Below are positions 6,619-44,418 of a stretch of DNA of 47,705 nt, one piece after another (positions within the stretch are counted from its first letter, which is position 1; the number at the start of each line of letters is the position of its first letter). The stretch spans positions 1 through 47,705 of the forward strand of contig JAJDUA010000056.1 in NCBI GenBank assembly GCA_022826905.1, in the 5' to 3' direction. The stretch is from Candidatus Dadabacteria bacterium (lineage in GTDB: Bacteria > Desulfobacterota_D > UBA1144 > Nemesobacterales > Nemesobacteraceae). Made by a program: the position numbers and the translations under genes. Below the pieces are notes generated by a model, which saw only the letters and a program-made list of their open reading frames with translations, made no database searches and had not been told where the DNA came from.

Positions 6619-6978
6619 CTAGCCGAATTTTTTTTCAATATCTTCCTGTTCTTCCTTGCACTCTAGGCAAAGAGTAGTCTCCGGTCTTGCAATCAGTCTC
6701 TGCTCAGAGATCTCCTCTTCACACACCTCACAGATTCCGTAAGAACCATTTTCAAGCCTCGCAAGCGCGTCGCGTATTTTCCGAAGCAGTTTTCTTTCCC
6801 TATCCCTTTCCCGAAGTTCGAGAACCCTGTTTGACTCGGATAGTGCCCTGTCAAGCGGGTCCGGGAAAGAATTGGACCCCTTGCTCATCCTATCAACAGT
6901 GTCATAGGCAATGCCCAGTATATCGGACATCTTCTGAATCAGGATGGTCCTTACCGTCTCTCTGGTTTCTGCCTTCAT
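6619..6978 (-). CDS. DksA/TraR-family zinc-finger protein
   Basis: A 119-residue protein with a coiled-coil N-terminal half and a four-cysteine zinc finger (C83, C86, C104, C107) in the family context GSYGICEVCEEEI and RPETTLCLECKEE. DksA-family proteins bind in the RNA polymerase secondary channel and adjust transcription, often with ppGpp. The conserved DPLDRALSES region matches the coiled-coil approach to the polymerase. It is shorter than E. coli DksA (151). It converges on the lipoprotein gene with a 3-bp gap. A second paralogue without the zinc ligands lies 2 kb away at 8981-9439. Confidence 0.9.
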   Translation of the reverse strand: MKAETRETVRTILIQKMSDILGIAYDTVDRMSKGSNSFPDPLDRALSESNRVLELRERDRERKLLRKIRDALARLENGSYGICEVCEEEISEQRLIARPETTLCLECKEEQEDIEKKFG

Positions 6979-7941: not shown

Positions 7942-8987
7942 ATTCCTTTAAAACTATAGAATGGAAAAACAACAAGGTCCTAATGCTTGACCAGAGAAAA
8001 CTTCCAGCAGAGGAAGTCTACTTTGAATGCACCACTTTTGAAGAGGTGGCCGAATGTATAAGGAAACTGGTTATCAGGGGAGCCCCGGCGATAGGAATAG
8101 CGGCCGCCATGGGGATGGCTCTCGGGGCCACGGGTATCGGGAACGACTGCTCCTACGAAAATTTCGAAGAGCGCATGAAAGCCATATCGGAGCACCTGGC
8201 CCTGACGCGACCTACAGCCGTAAATCTGTTTTGGGCCATCGGCAGAATGAACGGACTGATTTCCAAGTGCAGAGGCAAAGAGGTTGAAGAGATAAAAAAC
8301 CTTCTCATAACCGAGGCAGTCAATATACAGAAAGAAGACTTTAGAACATGCATGCAGATTGGGGAAAACGGGTCCAGACTCATAAGGGAGAACTCTGTTA
8401 TCCTCACGCACTGCAATGCCGGAGGACTCGCAACCGCCGGTTATGGAACAGCTCTAGGAGTAATAAGGTCAGCCTTTGGCCAAGGCAAAAATATAAGCGT
8501 AATATCATCAGAAACCAGACCTGTTCTCCAAGGAGCAAGGCTCACTACGTGGGAGCTTGAGCGGGATGGCATCCCGGTCAGTTTGATAACCGACAGCATG
8601 GCCGGGCATCTGATGAGTAAGGGGATCGTGGATTCAGTCGTGGTTGGGGCTGACAGGGTAGCTTCAAATGGAGATACGGCAAATAAGATAGGGACCTACT
8701 CCCTGTCCGTTCTGGCTAAGCATCACGGCATCCCCTTTTACGTAGCGGCTCCAACTTCAACCATAGATACAGGATGTTTAAGCGGAGAGGATATTATAAT
8801 TGAGCAAAGGGAACCCGAAGAAGTAACGCACATAGACGGGAAACGAATAAGTGCGGAAGTGACCGCAATCAATCCCGCTTTTGACATTACGCCGGCTGAA
8901 AACATCGAATGCCTGATAACTGAAGTCGGGCTGTTCAAAAAACCCTATACCAGATCTCTCGACAGGCTTAAAAAGAAAGATCAGTAA
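7938..8987 (+). CDS. mtnA: Methylthioribose-1-phosphate isomerase
   Basis: MtnA converts methylthioribose-1-phosphate to methylthioribulose-1-phosphate in the methionine salvage pathway. The protein (349 residues) belongs to the eIF2B-like family. Family signatures include VIRGAPAIGIAAA near the N terminus, LTHCNAGGLATAGYGTALG with the catalytic-site Cys, SETRPVLQGARLTTWEL, and GADRVASNGDTANKIGTY. No other methionine-salvage gene is visible in the window. The gene overlaps prmA upstream by 4 bp, and its last 7 bp overlap the end of the converging DksA-like gene. Confidence 0.95.
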   Translation: MNSFKTIEWKNNKVLMLDQRKLPAEEVYFECTTFEEVAECIRKLVIRGAPAIGIAAAMGMALGATGIGNDCSYENFEERMKAISEHLALTRPTAVNLFWAIGRMNGLISKCRGKEVEEIKNLLITEAVNIQKEDFRTCMQIGENGSRLIRENSVILTHCNAGGLATAGYGTALGVIRSAFGQGKNISVISSETRPVLQGARLTTWELERDGIPVSLITDSMAGHLMSKGIVDSVVVGADRVASNGDTANKIGTYSLSVLAKHHGIPFYVAAPTSTIDTGCLSGEDIIIEQREPEEVTHIDGKRISAEVTAINPAFDITPAENIECLITEVGLFKKPYTRSLDRLKKKDQ

Positions 8988-9439
8988 TCTCCCCTTTCGA
9001 TTTCTTCTTGGGCTTCGACACTCAGTTTCGTAAAGGGCATGACCATCAGCCTCTCTTCCCCTATTTTTTCCCCTGTAACTTCGCAGAAACCATATTCCCC
9101 GTTTTCAATCCTCTTTAGAGCATCATCTATCTGATGCAGTTTACTGCGCTCCCTGTTCGAAAGAGTAAGGGCAAGTTCTCTCTGCCTGTCTTCGGATGCG
9201 TGATCATAAAAATCTCCGACATTGAAACGCAGATGATCCGATTCCTCTTTCATTGATCGGGTTACATCTTTAAGTAGTTCCTCTTTCATCTCTTTAAGCA
9301 TAGCAGTCATCTGGTTAAGGAACTTCTTTGTATATTTTCTAGGGTTGGTTCTCCTCGACTTAGCTTTTGTTCCGGTCGTAGCGGAAGAACTTTTCTTCAA
9401 GGTCTTTTTTTCAGGTTTTTCCTTCTTTACTCTGGGCAC
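8981..9439 (-). CDS. DksA-like protein lacking most zinc ligands
   Basis: The 152-residue product has a basic, Lys-rich N-terminal tail, then a helical region with FYDHASEDRQREL, typical of DksA proteins, and a C-terminal finger-like region. In the finger, only the first cysteine position remains (C119). The other three are Thr122, Ser140 and Ala143, in exact register with C86, C104 and C107 of the neighbouring paralogue. A DksA without structural zinc is known in Pseudomonas (DksA2), so this may be a zinc-independent form; that is inference. GTG 9439 is chosen because AGGAG lies 5 nt upstream. A TTG seven codons earlier is the alternative. Confidence 0.85.
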   Translation of the reverse strand: MPRVKKEKPEKKTLKKSSSATTGTKAKSRRTNPRKYTKKFLNQMTAMLKEMKEELLKDVTRSMKEESDHLRFNVGDFYDHASEDRQRELALTLSNRERSKLHQIDDALKRIENGEYGFCEVTGEKIGEERLMVMPFTKLSVEAQEEIERGDY

Positions 9440-9547
9440 GCTGACTCCTCTGGCAATCAAAGTCTAAATTTTTCAAGGGTGAATTAAGATAAAATTATTA
9501 TTCCTTTTGTCAATACCGGTTATTGCTAACAATTAGGGGGTATTATC

Positions 9548-11321: not shown

Positions 11322-12671
11322 TTAGCTCTGTTCCGTTTCTTTTTGAAGAACTTCCTTGGGTTTTCCAATGCGGAAAATTTTTACAACATCTTCAAGCTGA
11401 TGTATCAAAAAGAGAGTAAGAGCAAAAGACGTAGCGAAAAGAACTAGGGAGTTTCCCCCGATTATCGCTATGAGAACTAATCCGGCCGAATAATAATTCC
11501 TCCTCCCCAAAAAGCGAAGACGGGCAAGCAGTTTCCTTGGAAGGGAAAGTTCCTCGGGGTTAATATGCTTGTCGACTTCAAAGTACGCAACCAGACTGCC
11601 GGAATTCGTGTACTTTATCAGAAAATAAAACGACCATATCAAAAACAGGATGAAGACGATGATGTTATAGCTTCCGAGGATCACCGCAACGGTGCTTCCG
11701 GTCTGAAGATAATATCCAACAGGAACTCCAATCAGGAAGGAAAGTACTGTAAACTGGTCACTTATAGTATCAACCCACTGCCCTTTTTTCGTCTCCATAA
11801 GCTTTATTCTCGCAACTTCTCCGTCACACCTGTCCAAAACAGTTGCCGCCTGCATGAAAAGAGCTCCGAGCACCGGATGACCAAGGGCGTAAAACGGCCC
11901 GCAGAGCACTCCTATAAGATTAATCAGAACGCTAACAGCGTTAGGTGTAAGAGATGTTTTTATCAGGAGCTTGCTCAGAGGAAGAGACATCCGGCCGTTT
12001 ATATTTCTAGCTATCCATCCGGTGGCCGTTTTACCTACGTGAGAAAAAATAATTCTTTCCGCTTCTTTTTGAGATTCCTTGGTATCCGAAAGACGGTACC
12101 AATACCCGCTGTCAGCACCAAAGATTTTCATGCGGTTCCGCGTGGCCTCGTCACCAAGCCAAGTATCGAGCCCAGCAGTTGAAAGTACAGATGCGACTTC
12201 TGTGAAATTTACGGAGAAAGCACCAAAAACGCTACTTCCTCCACCGAAATATTTGCTTACGTAACCAGTTTCCCTATCGATACCAACAACAGGATCAGCG
12301 TCCTGCTGAACAAGCACAGAAAATTCATCCTCAAGGCAATCAGATGAATCACGAATGAATTTTTCAAGGGAATCGGAGTTTGTGACGACCAGAGAGGATT
12401 CTAAAAGAAGAACCCTGCCCGAATCTATCGACACCGGTCCTCCAGGTAGGACCCAGTTTATGTCGGATGTAATTCTCGGGTCGTCAATAAGGAGGTTTTT
12501 AAGAAGACCCGGATTATCGGTAATTATATGAAACTGCTCAGTTCCGGCACGTTGACAATTTATAATAATTCTTTTCAGTTGAGGGACTTGCGCTATCGAT
12601 CTGCTTGGGAATCTGGATAGATCCTCGCCATTTGTTCCCATACCAGAACAAAGTACAATAGCGTTTTTCAT
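11322..12671 (-). CDS. Fused degenerate nucleotidyltransferase / CDP-alcohol phosphatidyltransferase
   Basis: A 449-residue two-domain protein. Residues 1 to about 215 have the shape of a sugar/alditol nucleotidyltransferase, but the usual GxGTRL loop is altered to SGMGTNG, so catalysis is doubtful. Residues 240-440 form a membrane CDP-alcohol phosphatidyltransferase with the full motif D280-x2-DG-x2-AR-x8-G297-x3-D301-x3-D305 and several hydrophobic helices. The architecture recalls archaeal/thermophile enzymes that make di-myo-inositol phosphate or inositol phospholipids from CDP-inositol. It is 6 nt downstream of a complete LicC-like nucleotidyltransferase, so that enzyme probably supplies the CDP-activated alcohol. 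The exact product is unknown. Confidence 0.85.
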   Translation of the reverse strand: MKNAIVLCSGMGTNGEDLSRFPSRSIAQVPQLKRIIINCQRAGTEQFHIITDNPGLLKNLLIDDPRITSDINWVLPGGPVSIDSGRVLLLESSLVVTNSDSLEKFIRDSSDCLEDEFSVLVQQDADPVVGIDRETGYVSKYFGGGSSVFGAFSVNFTEVASVLSTAGLDTWLGDEATRNRMKIFGADSGYWYRLSDTKESQKEAERIIFSHVGKTATGWIARNINGRMSLPLSKLLIKTSLTPNAVSVLINLIGVLCGPFYALGHPVLGALFMQAATVLDRCDGEVARIKLMETKKGQWVDTISDQFTVLSFLIGVPVGYYLQTGSTVAVILGSYNIIVFILFLIWSFYFLIKYTNSGSLVAYFEVDKHINPEELSLPRKLLARLRFLGRRNYYSAGLVLIAIIGGNSLVLFATSFALTLFLIHQLEDVVKIFRIGKPKEVLQKETEQS

Positions 12672-12677
12672 GGCAGA

Positions 12678-13460
12678 TTATTCAGAGGAGTCAACAACTC
12701 TCAGAAGATTTGGGGCACGGTATTCCTTTTTCAGGAATCTGTCGGCCTGTTTTCTCGCCCTGAAAAGATCCAGTGGACAGTCGACATCCATCCAGTAAAG
12801 TTCGCCTATATCGAGGGGCTTGATTTTATACCCCTTGCTTATAAGCCTGTGTATTGAGGAAATGTACCATTTCCCTTCGGCACCGGGATTCCTCATTTCT
12901 TCCTCGACTGCCCTTTTGAGCAGCTCAACTCCTGTATCCCTGAACACTCTTATGCCGACTGATTCAGCAGAAGTCTCGGCGTTTGATATCTCCTTGCTGA
13001 TCTTCGTAATTCTGCTGTCGTTGACAACAACTTTCATGTCCTCCCTTTCATACCGAGGTCTCTTTTTTATGGGAAGACAGATTTTTTCATCCCTGACCGC
13101 AAGCGCCTTGTCCAAAACACCTATCTCGTACACATCGTCTCCGTTCATGACCACTAAATCTTCGTCAAATTCGCTTCTAGCTATCCACAGAGACACAAGG
13201 CTGTTCGTAGACTGGTAGAATGGGTTGTAAAGAGTGTTGATTCTCATTCCCAAGCCATCGTAACTTCTTAGGAAATCCTCCACTCTTTCAAAACCAAAAC
13301 CTACGACGATCACGACTTCGTTTATGCCGCAGTCCCTTATAAGATTTATCTGGTGTTCAAGTATGGATATGTTCCCAATATCAAGAAGACACTTGGGCTT
13401 ATCATGAGTGTAGGGATATAGCCTAGTTCCCCTACCCGCTGCAAGTATTATAGCTTTCAT
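12678..13460 (-). CDS. LicC-like NTP transferase (CDP-alcohol forming, predicted)
   Basis: A 260-residue cytosolic nucleotidyltransferase. It has the loop AAGRGTRLYPYT with the following DKPK lysine, the metal-binding MNGDD (residues 105-109) and a late MDVDCPLDL. The segment NPFYQSTNSLVSLWIA is characteristic of the LicC/choline-phosphate and inositol-phosphate cytidylyltransferase group rather than of sugar-1-phosphate enzymes. It likely activates a phosphorylated alcohol with CTP for the adjoining transferase. The substrate could be phosphocholine, inositol phosphate or another polyol phosphate. It is first in a two-gene operon with a good upstream promoter. Confidence 0.85.
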   Translation of the reverse strand: MKAIILAAGRGTRLYPYTHDKPKCLLDIGNISILEHQINLIRDCGINEVVIVVGFGFERVEDFLRSYDGLGMRINTLYNPFYQSTNSLVSLWIARSEFDEDLVVMNGDDVYEIGVLDKALAVRDEKICLPIKKRPRYEREDMKVVVNDSRITKISKEISNAETSAESVGIRVFRDTGVELLKRAVEEEMRNPGAEGKWYISSIHRLISKGYKIKPLDIGELYWMDVDCPLDLFRARKQADRFLKKEYRAPNLLRVVDSSE

Positions 13461-36089: not shown

Positions 36090-36163
36090 CATATGATTAA
36101 TTTATTGACATAGAGTTCTTTTTCGATAAAGTTAAATAGTCATATGATCAGACCATATAATCA
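36090..36163. repeat. Three CATATRATYA repeats around cassette promoter
   Basis: CATATGATTA (36090-36099), CATATGATCA (36141-36150) and CATATAATCA (36154-36163). The first includes a perfect 10-bp palindrome (ATCATATGAT, 36088-36097), and the second an 8-bp one (TCATATGA). They flank the promoter, one just upstream of the -35 box and two between the -10 and the first ATG. This is what one expects of operator sites for the HTH protein encoded downstream. Confidence 0.55.
36105..36132 (+). promoter_or_regulatory. Promoter for the toxin-like/HTH/ATPase cassette
   Basis: TTGACA (36105-36110), a 16-bp spacer and TAAAGT (36127-36132). The predicted start is near 36140, about 24 bases ahead of the first ATG (36163), overlapping two of the repeats. 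Confidence 0.5.
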
Positions 36164-36543
36164 TGTCGGAAAAGGAAAATCTGGATGCAGTCAGGGAAAA
36201 AATGTTGGAACTGATTGGATCAGGAAGAACAGATGCTACGTTTTCAAAAGAACAACCCGTGCGTTGGGAACCAACCAGAGTTATCAATCCCGACCCCGCT
36301 GTTGGGATGCCGTTCACACATAAAGGGTGCTGGTATTTTATCGAGAAACTGTTGCACAATAAACAGCAACCTATTGAAATTATCACCCTTGAAAAACCCC
36401 CGGGAGAAAAAGGGTATGTGATGTTGTTTAAACAGGAAACAGGACAGGATATATACATCAAATTGCAATTCGGAAAGGGCCAAAAATGGTTGTTTGGACG
36501 AAGCTTTCATTACAGTGACCGGGAGAGAAATAATCGCAGTTAA
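36163..36543 (+). CDS. Small toxin-like protein paired with MqsA-type gene
   Basis: A 126-residue, basic, soluble protein. N-terminal residues 1-20 look helical; the second half has WYFIEKLL (57-64), IEIITLEKPPGEKGYVMLF and IYIKLQFGKGQKWLFGRSFHYS. The strand-rich end with the final GRSFH resembles small proteins commonly sited next to YgiT/MqsA-type antitoxins, but I cannot name the family. Position ahead of a zinc-ribbon HTH gene with a 15-bp gap suggests toxin or partner; there is no proof. It lacks a good ribosome-binding site and could be leaderless or weakly made. Confidence 0.7.
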   Translation: MSEKENLDAVREKMLELIGSGRTDATFSKEQPVRWEPTRVINPDPAVGMPFTHKGCWYFIEKLLHNKQQPIEIITLEKPPGEKGYVMLFKQETGQDIYIKLQFGKGQKWLFGRSFHYSDRERNNRS

Positions 36544-36558
36544 AAGAGGAGTATCAAA

Positions 36559-37092
36559 ATGAACAGGAATAACGAGACTAATCCGTTTTCTTCAGAAGAG
36601 AATATTATCTGCCACATGTGCGGGTCTTCTGATGTGCACATAAGAAAAGAAGAAGACAGGTTTGAGTACGGAAATGCTGAACCAAGCGTTTTTCTGAGCG
36701 CAATTGTAGATGTCTACAGGTGTAATGAGTGCTCCATTGAATATACAGACAGCAAGGCGGATGATTTGAGACATGAAGCCGTATGTAATTACCTAGGGGT
36801 GCTGACACCCAAAGAGATACTTCGTATTCGAGAGTCTATGAATATGTCTCAGAAAGAATTTTCCCATGAAACGGGAATTGGCGAAGCATCTCTAAGCAGG
36901 TGGGAACGGGGTTATCTGATTCAGAATGAAGCCATGGACAATTTCCTCTACCTGTTAAGCCAACCAGGGAATCTTGAGATTCTGCGAAAAAGGCGGAGCG
37001 ATTCTGCTGAGGACGTGGAACCCATTTTCAGAAACATTCCCGACATGGAAGAAGCAAAGAATCGGCGGGATGCATTCAGTCTCTGGCACTGA
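36559..37092 (+). CDS. Zinc-ribbon/HTH protein, MqsA-like
   Basis: A 177-residue protein. Residues 15-60 have a zinc ribbon with C18, C21, C55 and C58 (CHMCGSS and YRCNECS). Residues 83-130 form an Xre-type helix-turn-helix (LTPKEILRIRESMNMSQKEF, then GEASLSRWERGY). This is the layout of MqsA/YgiT-type antitoxins and some stand-alone regulators. MqsA proteins bind their own palindromic operators and their toxin. A strong ribosome-binding site (AGAGGAG) lies 7 nt before ATG. It is second of three genes; the ATPase follows after 23 bp. Confidence 0.85.
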   Translation: MNRNNETNPFSSEENIICHMCGSSDVHIRKEEDRFEYGNAEPSVFLSAIVDVYRCNECSIEYTDSKADDLRHEAVCNYLGVLTPKEILRIRESMNMSQKEFSHETGIGEASLSRWERGYLIQNEAMDNFLYLLSQPGNLEILRKRRSDSAEDVEPIFRNIPDMEEAKNRRDAFSLWH

Positions 37093-37115
37093 GACCCTCA
37101 AGCAGAACTTAACAT

Positions 37116-38969
37116 ATGTACACAGTAACGTTTTATTCATTCAAAGGCGGAGTGGGAAGGTCCATGGCGATGATGAACACCGCATTCACCTTGATCGCCG
37201 AGGGAAAAAAAGTTCTGGTGGTGGATTTTGATCTGGAAGCACCAGGGCTGGATACCTTTGCTCTTCCCAATTCGGCAAACAAAAATCTGGGTGTTGTTGA
37301 CTTCGTATGTGATTACATAAAGACTGGAATAGCCCCCGAAATTGATGAGTACTGCTTCAGGAGTTCCACTGATGATTCTTCCGGGGGTGAACTGTGGCTT
37401 ATGCCTGCTGGGAGAAGAGATGAAAAGTACGCTGATCTCATGAACTCCATTAACTGGAGGGAACTTTACGACAAAAGAGACGGTTACCTGTTGCTTGAGG
37501 ACCTCAAAGCCCAGTGGAAAAGTTACCTGAAACCTGACTATGTGTTGATTGACTCAAGAACAGGACACACTGATGAAGGAGGCATTTGTACCCGGCAGCT
37601 TCCTAATGCTGTAGTATGTCTGTTTTTTCCGAATCGCCAAAATCTTATTGGGTTAACTCGCGCCGTCAATCGGATAAGAAAAGAAAATGATATAAGAAAA
37701 GAGAAATTCCCTGGCAAAGAATCTATAATTCTGCATTTTGTAACTTCAAATGTCCCTGACCTAGATGACGAAAACAGTGTTTTGGAAGAGACTTTGTCAG
37801 ATTTCGAGACCGAACTGCAATATAGTGAGCTTGCCGCAACAATTCATCATTATCCCAGTCTTGCTTTGCTAAATCAGGACATTTTCACGCGTGACAGACC
37901 CAAGAGTCGTCTTGCTGCCGAGTACCGTCAACTTGTAACCGCAATTCAGAAGGAAAATCCAAAAGACAAAAGAGGCTCTTTGATGTTTTTAAGTGATGAG
38001 CTCGAACAACTTGGCAAAGTACCACTTGAAAAAAGAAATGAAGAACATCTTAAGAGAATTTTTGAAAATCATGGGGAAGATGTTGAGGTACTAAAAAATC
38101 TTATAGATCTAAGATACAGACAAAGACAGTTTGAAGAGACAGAAGAACTTCTAAGTCGTGCACTTGGTTTAGACAACCATAACCCAGATTTGTTGTTCCG
38201 CAAGGTCATTCTATCAGATAAATTCGGCCAAACCAAACAAGCTATCGAAAACGCCTTGATGGCAGTACAGCAACCAGAATTAGGTGGCTTTGAATTAAAC
38301 CAAATTGTCCGTCTTCTAGCCAATAAAGAGCCTAGCACGCTCAAGAAGATTGACTCTTGGCCTGCCATTAAGAACATGAGTGAACATGAGTTGGTACTTT
38401 TAACAGAGCCGTTAAGCTTTACGAGGTCGCTACTTTCTTCGGCAGAGTTGTTGATTCGTTTTATACTAGCGAAATTAGATAGAAGCCCCCAAACTGAAGC
38501 CACTCTCATTTCGAAAATTAGGAATGGTCTTGTTTTAAACTTGATAGGCCAAAAAAGGTTTAGCGAGGCTATTGATATATGCAATAATATTATTAGAAAC
38601 GATCCTTTTGATCAAAGCTCTTTGTTTAATCTGGCCATTGCAACTTGGGGAGAAGCCCCTCTGAAAATGCCACCAGTGGATATGTTCCAGTCCGCGCTTG
38701 ACTTTGGAACAAATAAACCCAGCTACTCAGCAAATTACTTGCAGTGTATGAGTCTTGCAAATTGGGTTACAGGAAAATCCGTAGAGGCAAAAGAATTTCT
38801 CGGAAAAGCAAAACATAAGGTTGTTACTGCTGAGTTTTCCTGCTGGTCTTTTCTCTATCGCACACCTAGAAATTTTCTTCAGGAACTGGAACAGCAGGAA
38901 AAAATGTTTTCCGACAAGGAGATTCTTCCCGAGGTGATAGAGCCGCTCGGTTTTCCATTTTCAAGCTGA
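37116..38969 (+). CDS. KGGVGR-variant MinD/ParA-like ATPase with helical repeat tail
   Basis: A 617-residue protein. Residues 1-270 form a deviant Walker P-loop domain: K10-GGVGRS (Arg in place of the usual Lys), VDFDLEAPGLD (D37, D39) and LIDSRTGHTDEGGICT (D146), the group called KGGVGR-motif ATPases. Residues about 300-600 look like TPR-type helical pairs (for example RQRQFEETEELLSRALGLDN and KRFSEAIDICNNI). Such ATPases often sit with conflict-system effectors. It likely dimerises on ATP binding and the repeats bind a partner. Codons look more AT-rich than in neighbouring genes, suggesting transfer. No strong ribosome-binding site precedes ATG 37116. Confidence 0.85.
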   Translation: MYTVTFYSFKGGVGRSMAMMNTAFTLIAEGKKVLVVDFDLEAPGLDTFALPNSANKNLGVVDFVCDYIKTGIAPEIDEYCFRSSTDDSSGGELWLMPAGRRDEKYADLMNSINWRELYDKRDGYLLLEDLKAQWKSYLKPDYVLIDSRTGHTDEGGICTRQLPNAVVCLFFPNRQNLIGLTRAVNRIRKENDIRKEKFPGKESIILHFVTSNVPDLDDENSVLEETLSDFETELQYSELAATIHHYPSLALLNQDIFTRDRPKSRLAAEYRQLVTAIQKENPKDKRGSLMFLSDELEQLGKVPLEKRNEEHLKRIFENHGEDVEVLKNLIDLRYRQRQFEETEELLSRALGLDNHNPDLLFRKVILSDKFGQTKQAIENALMAVQQPELGGFELNQIVRLLANKEPSTLKKIDSWPAIKNMSEHELVLLTEPLSFTRSLLSSAELLIRFILAKLDRSPQTEATLISKIRNGLVLNLIGQKRFSEAIDICNNIIRNDPFDQSSLFNLAIATWGEAPLKMPPVDMFQSALDFGTNKPSYSANYLQCMSLANWVTGKSVEAKEFLGKAKHKVVTAEFSCWSFLYRTPRNFLQELEQQEKMFSDKEILPEVIEPLGFPFSS

Positions 38970-40981: not shown

Positions 40982-41641
40982 CTACAAGTCAATAATTGAG
41001 AGCAGTTCCATCGGAGTTTCTATAAGATGTTCGGCTCCGTTTTCACGAAGCTCATCCCCTGTTCGAAAGCCCCAGAGAACTCCTACCGGAAGCATACCTG
41101 CCCCGACGGCGGTAAGCATGTCCACCCCCGAGTCTCCAAGGTAAACCATCCGTGAAGATTCAATTCCGAGTTCCCTTGATATCCGCAGCGCTCCCGAAGG
41201 ATCAGGCTTTCTCGGAATTTCATCCCTCTGACCTATAACCACCTCGAAATTCCAGTCCGCTAGCAGCTCCTCAACGTATTTTTCGGTAAACACGTGCGGT
41301 TTGTTGGTAAGAATCGCCTTTTTCAGACCTCTATCTGAAATCTCGTTCAGAAGATCCGGTATGCCGTCATAAAGCGTGGTTTTCACGTTGAAAGAGCAGC
41401 TGTAGATTCTGTTGAAATCGTCAAGGCACTTTTCAACGACAGCATCATCGTTTCTTTTGTCCTCGGGAAGGGCTCTGGACACCATGACCTTTGGACCTTT
41501 TCCTATAAAGTACTTGTAGCATCCGGTCGCGCGCGCTGGAAACCCGCTTATGGCAAGCGCCTGATTCACGGCGTCAGCGAGATCCTCAAGAGAGTCAATC
41601 AGGGTTCCGTCAAGGTCAAATACAACTGCTCCGTAGCTCAT
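40982..41641 (-). CDS. HAD-family phosphatase, phosphoglycolate phosphatase-like
   Basis: A 219-residue haloacid dehalogenase-type phosphatase with motif I VVFDLDGTLIDS (nucleophile Asp), motif II AILTNKP, motif III Lys in PRKPDPS and motif IV LGDSGVDM. A helical cap domain lies between motifs I and II. It is closest to Gph, which removes phosphate from 2-phosphoglycolate; substrate assignment within HAD families is not reliable from sequence. It is first of the gph-purK-purE group. Confidence 0.88.
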   Translation of the reverse strand: MSYGAVVFDLDGTLIDSLEDLADAVNQALAISGFPARATGCYKYFIGKGPKVMVSRALPEDKRNDDAVVEKCLDDFNRIYSCSFNVKTTLYDGIPDLLNEISDRGLKKAILTNKPHVFTEKYVEELLADWNFEVVIGQRDEIPRKPDPSGALRISRELGIESSRMVYLGDSGVDMLTAVGAGMLPVGVLWGFRTGDELRENGAEHLIETPMELLSIIDL

Positions 41642-43278: not shown

Positions 43279-44418
43279 ATGAAATGGGTATGGCAACATT
43301 CTGACTGGCCAAACTTTACATGGGACCGGTCTGCTCTGATACCTCTGGAGAAGCGATTCCTGCACGAGTCGGGGCGCAGAATCGGCGCCTGGCGTCAGCT
43401 CACCAATGAAGATCAGTCCGAACTGCGGGTCAAGTGGTTAAGCGGCGAAGCCGTTGAGACATCCGCAATTGAAGGTGAAATTCTCGACCGGGAATCAGTG
43501 CAAGCCTCTATCCGCCGACGATTCGGGTTAACTACCGGCAAGGAGACTGCTTCACCTGAAGAAGAAGGGGTAGCTGAAATGATGGTAGCGCTCTTCCATG
43601 AGTATGACCGCCCGCTGAACCACGAAACGCTGTGGCGCTGGCACCGGATGCTCATGCGAGACCGCACTTACCTAGAAGTTGTCGGCGGCTATCGTCGCCA
43701 CCCCGAACCTATGCAGGTGGTTTCCGGGCCCGACTACAAACCAAAGGTTCACTATGAAGCACCCCCTTCGGAGCGGATGACAGAGGAGATGGAACGTTTC
43801 GTAGCATGGTACGGCCAGACCGCATCCATCGGGGATAGGCTATCTTCTTTGACCTGGGCGGGAACCGCACACTTGTACTTTGTGCGTATTCATCCCTTCG
43901 AGGATGGAAATGGGCGCATAGCCCGCGCCTTGGCGGAAAAAGCTCTCGCTCAGTCACTCGGCGAACCGAGCCTAGTTGCGCTTTCCCGCACCATCGCCCG
44001 ACGACGCAAAGCCTACTACGACATTTTGGATGAGAGTTCCAGATCGCTTGATATCACCGACTGGCTTAGGTGGTTTGCGAATACCGTATTAGACGCTCAG
44101 ATCTGGAGCGAACGCCGTCTGACCCGGTCAATCCAGCAGACACACTTGTTCAATCAGCTCCGCGGCTCGCTGAACCTACGCCAAGAGAAAATTTTGCTAC
44201 GACTCTTCGACGCCGAACCAGAAGGCTTTGAGGGTGGGCTCAGCGCACAGAACTATCACAGGATAACCGGGGCAACGGCTTCAACGGCGACGCGAGATCT
44301 CTCCAATCTGGTAGACATGGGCGCGCTTCGCAGAACAGGCCAGCGACGCCACACGCGCTACTGGCTCAACCTGCCTCCGTTTGAGGAACCGAACCGGCAG
44401 GAAACAAACGGTCAATAA
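43279..44418 (+). CDS. Fic-domain protein with N-terminal DUF4172 and inhibitory helix
   Basis: A 379-residue Fic protein. Fic enzymes usually add AMP to a hydroxyl of a target protein. The active site HPFEDGNGRIAR (205-216) is complete. TSAIEG (61-66) matches the [S/T]xxxE[G/N] inhibitory motif, so it is a self-inhibited (class II-like) Fic. The N-terminal WVWQHSDWPNFTWD region resembles DUF4172, and a winged-helix-like end (about 290-370; GLSAQNYHRITGATASTATRDL) may bind DNA or protein. It looks more GC-rich than neighbours and splits trmFO from glyQ, suggesting transfer. Confidence 0.93.
   Translation: MKWVWQHSDWPNFTWDRSALIPLEKRFLHESGRRIGAWRQLTNEDQSELRVKWLSGEAVETSAIEGEILDRESVQASIRRRFGLTTGKETASPEEEGVAEMMVALFHEYDRPLNHETLWRWHRMLMRDRTYLEVVGGYRRHPEPMQVVSGPDYKPKVHYEAPPSERMTEEMERFVAWYGQTASIGDRLSSLTWAGTAHLYFVRIHPFEDGNGRIARALAEKALAQSLGEPSLVALSRTIARRRKAYYDILDESSRSLDITDWLRWFANTVLDAQIWSERRLTRSIQQTHLFNQLRGSLNLRQEKILLRLFDAEPEGFEGGLSAQNYHRITGATASTATRDLSNLVDMGALRRTGQRRHTRYWLNLPPFEEPNRQETNGQ

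Follow-up and report, generated by a model that had tools for sequence, protein, structure and literature searches.

In a 47,705-nucleotide (nt) stretch of DNA, here called the window, from a Candidatus Dadabacteria bacterium (assembly GCA_022826905.1, contig JAJDUA010000056.1), two adjacent genes on the minus strand encode a LicC-like nucleotidyltransferase and a fusion of a degenerate nucleotidyltransferase domain with a CDP-alcohol phosphotransferase. Both open reading frames (ORFs), the complete LicC-like gene and the fusion beside it, are present exactly as an earlier, sequence-only reading of this DNA had described them. The assembly measures 1.78 Mb at 93% completeness, and the window is its contig C43. 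The features of the pair are as follows; IPCT stands for inositol-1-phosphate cytidylyltransferase, DIPP for di-myo-inositol phosphate and CpgD for a Caulobacter enzyme discussed below.

12678..13460, minus strand: LicC-like (CpgD-type) cytidylyltransferase, 260 amino acids (aa); Pfam NTP_transferase, intact catalytic signature, CpgD-type residues, AlphaFold2 model
13392..13442, minus strand: AAGRGTRL...PK nucleotide-binding and catalytic loop, LicC-like residues 7-23, with R13 and K23 corresponding to CpgD R16 and K26; from the alignment
13137..13145, minus strand: NGD triplet, LicC-like residues 106-108, corresponding to CpgD N110-G111-D112; IPCT rows read M-(A/S)-D there; from the alignment
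12672..12677, minus strand: 6-nt gap between the stop of the LicC-like gene and the start of the fusion; 0-10 nt in the 14 loci measured base by base
11322..12671, minus strand: fusion protein, 449 aa, CDP-alcohol phosphotransferase preceded by a dead nucleotidyltransferase domain; Pfam, AlphaFold2 model, fold match
12042..12671, minus strand: dead IPCT-type N-terminal domain, about residues 1-210; fold match, catalytic residues lost
11361..12032, minus strand: CDP-alcohol phosphotransferase membrane domain, about residues 214-437; Pfam, fold match
11757..11834, minus strand: DxxDGxxARx8GxxxDxxxD catalytic motif, complete, residues 280-305; invariant in a 37-row alignment
11583..11609, minus strand: TNSGSLVAY segment, residues 355-363, in the place of YTxxKYD of DIPP synthases (DIPPS); proposed acceptor-site change, from motif comparison

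The LicC-like enzyme and the fusion protein

The LicC-like protein, a LicC/MobA-type nucleotidyltransferase, matches the Pfam families NTP_transferase (7.1e-14) and NTP_transf_3 (2.1e-11); its AlphaFold2 model has a pLDDT of 92. The fusion has a sole Pfam match, CDP-OH_P_transf (PF01066; 8.7e-10, residues 242-344), with nothing N-terminal of it; the score of 39.6 bits lies above the gathering cut-off of 22 and places the protein in that family. Among NCBIfam models the bifunctional IPCT-DIPPS NF041135 fits it best; with 87.3 bits, where the cut-off is 580, the fusion stays outside the family as defined. That model was built for Thermococcales, and even a canonical-looking homologue (L050) reaches only 319 bits. 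A promoter scan was uninformative, with 11 matches against 4.2 expected.

The AlphaFold2 model of the fusion (mean pLDDT 85.9, from a 37-row alignment) has as its best whole-length VIA match 4MND, the Archaeoglobus fulgidus IPCT-DIPPS, with Z 26.0 over 375 residues at a root-mean-square deviation of 3.9 (residues 1-435); Foldseek ranked 4MND second. The protein thus has the two-domain IPCT-DIPPS fold. Because the model matches 4MND and also AF2299, the N-terminal domain has a nucleotidyltransferase fold of the IPCT/LicC kind, as the sequence-only reading had proposed, and the unrelated fold that would have contradicted it did not appear. AF2299 (4O6M/4O6N; Z 25.6), the best PDB sequence match of the fusion, likewise joins a cytidylyltransferase-like soluble domain to a CDP-alcohol phosphotransferase; it differs in its shorter soluble domain and in its donor, described as CDP-glycerol (PMC4634129).

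The N-terminal domain is degenerate, again as supposed. Its AAGxGxR...K signature is found in none of 32 fusions, as against 3/3 intact single proteins from equivalent operons (the active-operon proteins described below), 4/4 canonical IPCT-DIPPS proteins and 17/17 LicC-like partners. In the fusion the loop reads GTN, compared with G(T/S)R in intact IPCT-DIPPS homologues, the PK lysine is gone and the acidic site is lost; the protein of the window lacks the marks of an active IPCT-DIPPS cytidylyltransferase. By this comparison, the domain is of IPCT descent and its catalytic residues are gone.

The phosphotransferase domain is complete, its D, D, G, A, R, G, D and D residues being invariant across 37 aligned homologues. 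Downstream of the motif, a TxSGSLxxY-type segment replaces the DIPPS YTxxKYD in 35/35 fusion and active-operon rows and in 0/14 other rows. In PIP synthases, a serine and a lysine of the region equivalent to YTxxKYD, plus two arginines, have been implicated in inositol phosphate binding (PMC4634129). The segment, compared here as a motif, suggests a changed acceptor site in the fusion. Relative to the bifunctional IPCT-DIPPS (NF041135; 4MND), then, the two-domain architecture, the fold and the complete phosphotransferase motif are shared, whereas the cytidylyltransferase is dead, a GSL segment stands for YTxxKYD and activation would take place in trans.

Conservation, operon context and the lipid question

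We searched 60 genomes, the present one included, and called the fusion at E 2.4e-49 or better. It occurs in 54 of them; the remaining six comprise three same-order genomes and three from other phyla. A LicC-like match lies directly upstream on the same strand in 54/54 fusion-bearing genomes, a pairing far above chance. Outside the genus the partner is the better conserved of the two, with identities of 49-75% against 28-58% for the fusion. A class-wide two-gene pathway in Dadabacteria, a variant among CDP-alcohol phosphotransferases, is in our view real. The present genome holds three CDP-alcohol phosphotransferase genes: a pssA-like gene beside a psd-like ORF, a PIPS/AIPS-like gene on contig C26, and the fusion.

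Fusions 81-94% identical to that of the window were found in 10 records. One 86% identical fusion (L082) lies in a metagenome-assembled genome (MAG) labelled Candidatus Poribacteria that is probably mislabelled or mixed. Second LicC-like copies, 97% and 89% identical, are located elsewhere in two same-genus genomes (G007:C1:840837-841616 and G011:C42:362-1141). A few Dadabacteria have a canonical intact IPCT-DIPPS-like gene besides the pair (L050:5039-6352, L051:3815-5131, L052:2163-3506, L053:7977-9305), perhaps for a solute pathway in those genomes.

The closest relatives outside Dadabacteria are MAGs labelled Gemmatimonadetes, Latescibacterota and Handelsmanbacteria, referred to below as the related phylum. 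Their recurring gene order is LicC-like, dead fusion, an HpnL/lysylphosphatidylglycerol-synthase-type membrane protein, a TolC-type OEP protein, DUF3047, an MlaC/HpnM-like protein and an MMPL/HpnN-like protein. In three genomes of the same phylum the pair gives way to one protein of 486-489 aa whose IPCT domain is intact; it lies amid OEP, HpnM-like and HpnN-like genes, with an HpnL-like gene in two of the three; one such protein, when scanned, scored 268 bits to NF041135. Since the same operon genes surround either the LicC-like gene and dead fusion or one intact IPCT-DIPPS-like protein, the two arrangements hold the same place, and this lipid-export-type operon has apparently gone over from activation in cis to activation in trans.

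The sequence-only reading had called for a tree of the second domain, and we built one from 39 rows (49 rows minus 6 'other' forms, 2 second-family and 2 PIPS-like rows). Dead-fusion and active-operon rows separate from DIPPS with support of 100/100. The 32 rows with a dead N-terminal domain lie on one side at 93/86, which is not decisive.

A hopanoid pathway was considered for these operons and rejected. The export-type neighbours of the related phylum score under the curated cut-offs (HpnL 150.5 of 195.65, HpnM 71.1 of 160.1, HpnN 277.3 of 751.85), so that they are Hpn-like only and we make no hopanoid claim; in Dadabacteria, HpnN-like matches are below the cut-off in 60/60 genomes and mostly absent in the marine family. 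Close to the pair, the related phylum also has a second divergent LicC-type gene and another CDP-alcohol phosphotransferase of about 413-420 aa (L122:3481-7087, L183:12802-14750, L128:5653-6402), joined in L122 by a 549-aa ORF without a Pfam match. The second-family transferase is about 30% identical to plasmid sphingolipid-cluster transferases. Tandem CDP-alcohol phosphotransferases of 490-500 aa with degenerate N-terminal parts occur in L134, L137 and L209:6871-10116, and the L209 pair adjoins two second-family transferases near a DUF3047 gene.

Within Dadabacteria, an Asp/Asn-hydroxylase-type (OlsC/LpxO-like) gene directly follows the fusion in 12 of 25 loci. One such protein, when scanned, reached 307 bits with OlsC, whose cut-off is 450, and 140 with LpxO, whose cut-off is 500; it is 52% identical to a gene on the Pseudomonas plasmid pPNP1 that lies beside a LicC-like/CDP-alcohol phosphotransferase pair. 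The gene is absent at the loci of the window's own genus and of the marine family. Where present, it suggests acyl hydroxylation of the same lipid. In 22-23 of 25 Dadabacteria loci the pair has panB, panC and panD for neighbours. None of the three was recognised next to those related-phylum pairs that were compared, and we rejected a pantothenate link as what looks like plain synteny.

Whether the product is a lipid or a solute had been left open by the sequence-only reading. The conserved neighbours lean it towards a lipid, which we consider probable, and the solute is the less favoured half of that statement. A soluble phosphodiester acting as a compatible solute, for example di-myo-inositol phosphate or an analogue with glycerate, is very unlikely. 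In its favour, neither AF2299 nor AfDIPPS, the nearest relatives with solved structures, processes lipids, lipid-acceptor eukaryotic enzymes usually have extra helices (PMC4634129), and the transferase domain of the fusion aligns with DIPPS over its length. Against it stand the lipid-type neighbours in three lineages, the consistent replacement of YTxxKYD noted above, and the hosts, most of which are MAGs of sponge, ocean and groundwater type and not hyperthermophiles (habitats partly inferred from names).

Candidates for the head group

Among the matches listed, the nearest named homologues of the LicC-like partner are plasmid-borne (296 records matched, 20 listed, five LicC-like regions read). 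On Diaphorobacter pDCB2 and Roseomonas p546-2, clusters combine the LicC-like homologue with a pyridoxal-phosphate-dependent aminotransferase, acyl carrier protein, fatty acyl-AMP ligase, LptF/LptG permeases, a metallophosphoesterase, a second nucleotidyltransferase and CDP-alcohol phosphatidyltransferases. On pPNP1 the homologue lies beside a CDP-alcohol phosphatidyltransferase and the Asp/Asn-hydroxylase gene; of the other two regions, one was uninformative and one is a phosphonate cluster. The plasmid gene set resembles the Caulobacter ceramide-diphosphoglycerate region, in which CC_1152 encodes a nucleotidyltransferase of LicD-like type and CC_1159 a protein with a CDP-alcohol-type domain (PMC11324152). 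CCNA_01210, or CpgD, makes CDP-glycerate although its best structural match is the Thermotoga maritima IPCT (PMC12275187); from their matching roles, CC_1152 would be the same gene.

In CpgD, Asn90, Asn110 and, via water, Ser170 contact glycerate, Met147 and Lys161 lie above it, and Arg16 and Trp201 are near CTP/Mg (preprint PMC13228409). We looked for these residues in a 37-row alignment, in which the placement of S170 is tentative. The catalytic R16, K26 and D112 are kept in 14/14 Dadabacteria rows, and N110, M147, K161, S170 and W201 all occur in the same 14 rows and in four proteobacterial cluster rows. Ten IPCT rows have M, T, K and D at 110, 147, 161 and 170 and no W201; K161 alone is common to both groups, and the full CpgD set is found in 0/10. 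In the printed PDB alignments, judged by eye, none of the three proteins T. maritima IPCT, A. fulgidus IPCT and PntC has N facing 110 or M facing 147. The PDB matches did not include CpgD.

The LicC-like tree (38 rows) agrees with this division. Dadabacteria, related-phylum and proteobacterial cluster rows group together at 87/90, which is not starred; the IPCT rows stand apart at 93/94 and the LicC-like rows at 92/88, neither starred. By tree grouping, and by N, M and S in place of the IPCT M, T and D at 110, 147 and 170, the LicC-like gene is not IPCT-like. As with CpgD and CC_1159 (CpgA) of Caulobacter, the pair sets a COG1213/LicC-type cytidylyltransferase next to a CDP-alcohol phosphotransferase for a lipid pathway, a probable one in the case of the pair, and the residues at 110, 147, 161, 170 and 201 are the same. 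The Dadabacteria system differs in that Asn90 is replaced and in that its transferase belongs to the IPCT-DIPPS branch and not with the cluster transferases.

Several observations weigh against phosphoglycerate as the head-group source, or against the history that we attach to it. Asn90, the direct glycerate contact of CpgD, is Ser in 14/14 Dadabacteria rows, with Asn one column earlier; for that reason we describe the LicC-like protein as CpgD-like and do not file it as CpgD. The CpgD numbering was applied through a plasmid homologue and not through CpgD's own sequence; the homologue fits it exactly at G12, R16, K26, N110, G111 and D112 and within one residue later. Four related-phylum partners have the CpgD-type residues except W201. 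The fusion is closest to inositol enzymes and shares 23% identity over 187 aa with the cluster phosphotransferases, and no ceramide genes were seen in the window, to which that inspection was confined. In the 49-row transferase tree, whose extra rows are partly long-branched, the deep forks are not resolved and carry a long-branch warning. Four relatives have the dead fusion with HpnL-like and DUF3047 genes and no adjacent LicC-like gene, one of them with an IPCT-like gene about 4 kb away; nor was a LicC-like gene seen beside the fusion in two more genomes, which belong to another group. Finally, inositol-1-phosphate synthase (MIPS) is present in 53/60 genomes and in all 18 genomes outside Dadabacteria that have a homologue.

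The MIPS counts bear on a rival reading in which the LicC-like protein is a divergent IPCT and the fusion makes an inositol phospholipid via CDP-inositol; we judge it distinctly unlikely. It draws on the whole-length IPCT-DIPPS fold, on the intact IPCT-DIPPS-like protein in the same operon place in related genomes, and on the lack of any other IPCT-like match in the present genome (one match only). The best full-length PDB match of the partner by profile search is, moreover, T. maritima IPCT (66.5 bits). In the related phylum, MIPS occurs in 48/49 genomes with the transferase (E < 1e-40) and in 9/15 without it (Fisher p 0.0004, kinship and completeness ignored). CDP-inositol-dependent synthesis of inositol phospholipid has reportedly been named for thermophiles by Jorge in 2015.

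A comparable route, with an NTP transferase and a CDP-alcohol phosphatidyltransferase beside MIPS and a lysylphosphatidylglycerol-synthase neighbour, is predicted by Heaver 2022 (PMC9246714). Compared by description, the CDP-inositol lipid route (Jorge 2015; Bacteroidetes cluster, PMC9246714) is alike in that a nucleotidyltransferase makes the CDP-head-group and a CDP-alcohol phosphotransferase puts it on a lipid. Unlike the predicted Bacteroidetes cluster, our pair has neither MIPS nor a HAD gene beside it, and its partner is not IPCT-like by tree or residues. A HAD hydrolase was not found beside the pair; the nearest in the window lies at 40982-41641.

We had first favoured inositol as a settled head group, on the strength of the IPCT-DIPPS homology, the operon replacement and MIPS. 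It was then lowered because of four findings. The present genome has its own PIPS/AIPS-like enzyme (116.4 and 139.2 bits, the respective cut-offs being 170 and 180), which can consume inositol phosphate; MIPS is common in the related phylum anyway (57/64); the LicC-like partner falls outside the IPCT clade and lacks IPCT DTG/ATKV-type residues; and its residues are of the CpgD type. MIPS is also unlinked to the pair, lying on contig C9 and not on C43. CpgD itself sets the same trap as the LicC-like partner, since it uses phosphoglycerate despite its structural resemblance to IPCT. That the inositol history of the family, on which the sequence-only reading had drawn, fixes the head group is not supported, given the partner's position outside the IPCT clade and its CpgD-type glycerate-contact residues. 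A further gene supplying the substrate together with a known product, which that reading had named as evidence against itself, was found at most by half: MIPS is in the genome, but the PIPS-like enzyme could consume its product.

In one locus (L193:3-2073), a PIPS-like protein similar in kind to that on C26 is encoded directly upstream of MIPS; from these neighbours, Dadabacteria may also make phosphatidylinositol phosphate.

Another alternative keeps the two-step lipid pathway and supplies it with a different phospho-alcohol (glycerol phosphate, phosphocholine, phosphoethanolamine or an amino-acid-type alcohol), which we think unlikely. The LicC/COG1213 family is broad, covering phosphosugars, phosphocholine, phosphoglutamine and phosphoglycerate (PMC12275187), PntC is the partner's best fold match (Z 31.0), and a family member was found in the phosphonate cluster; this phosphonate-cluster homologue, however, has none of the five CpgD-type residues. 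LicC (1JYK) is the partner's best PDB sequence match, at 58.8 bits over the N-terminal part, and has the same fold (Z 27.8-28.1), but it carries D opposite N110 (printed alignment, by eye). A search for choline kinase PF01633, LicC-type kinases of other families lying outside its scope, gave no match in the present genome and matches in 5/60 genomes, one of them over the cut-off. For phosphoenolpyruvate (PEP) mutase, the present genome has weak local matches alone, one of which is panB; full-length PEP mutase superfamily relatives occur in other Dadabacteria.

A proposed pathway and its possible origin

Our best explanation, which we hold tentatively and at a little under an even chance, is a pathway fed by CDP-glycerate with transfer of the head group to a lipid, in which the dead IPCT domain is a relic left by a former route through CDP-inositol. 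The LicC-like protein would act in trans, turning CTP and a phospho-alcohol, most likely phosphoglycerate, into the CDP-alcohol, in that case CDP-glycerate. The fusion, judging by its intact catalytic motif, would then combine the CDP-alcohol with a lipid acceptor to give the phospho-alcohol lipid and CMP. The dead domain is probably kept as a structural base of the membrane domain, perhaps serving as a docking site for the LicC-like partner. On this view the lineage seems to have exchanged activation in cis for activation in trans and has perhaps changed its head group.

That the first gene supplies the CDP-head-group and the second transfers it, the central idea of the sequence-only reading, is well supported by the live signature in the partner, the dead one in the fusion and the intact transferase motif; we consider this two-step logic likely. 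The accompanying statement that the product is not identifiable was a little too pessimistic. Phosphoglycerate is a concrete first candidate for the head-group source, leading but unproven, and from the residues and gene neighbours we would put it just short of evenly balanced.

We speculate further on a head-group switch by domain death, in which a bifunctional inositol-lipid IPCT-phosphotransferase lost its cytidylyltransferase and, re-fed by a CpgD-like enzyme, became a glycerate-lipid synthase, although we regard this as rather unlikely. If true, Dadabacteria as a class, streamlined lineages of roughly 1 Mb among them, would contain an anionic phosphoglycerate lipid that is so far undescribed; the dead domain, a molecular fossil, would preserve a record of the former head group and may dock the new partner. 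The pair also suggests a route by which a pathway can change its head group: with the in-cis activating domain dead, the same transferase is fed by an enzyme in trans, and the dead domain is retained in the fold.

In the literature searched, we found no description of the LicC-like/fusion pair in Dadabacteria and none of their polar lipids. For uncultured phyla little is known about lipid head groups, and the pair gives a cheap, concrete prediction, namely CDP-glycerate and a phosphoglycerate lipid. It also advises caution where the family name of a fused domain is used to infer the head group, as here the fold says inositol and the live partner says otherwise.

Elsewhere in the window, positions 36163-38969 encode an MqsA-type antitoxin/HTH protein and, after it, an AAA ATPase that has the KGGVGR motif (173 bits, cut-off 90) and TPR-like repeats. 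A Fic/DOC protein with an N-terminal DUF4172 domain is encoded at 43279-44418, and two DksA/TraR-type zinc-finger genes lie about 2 kb apart on the minus strand at 6619-6978 and 8981-9460.

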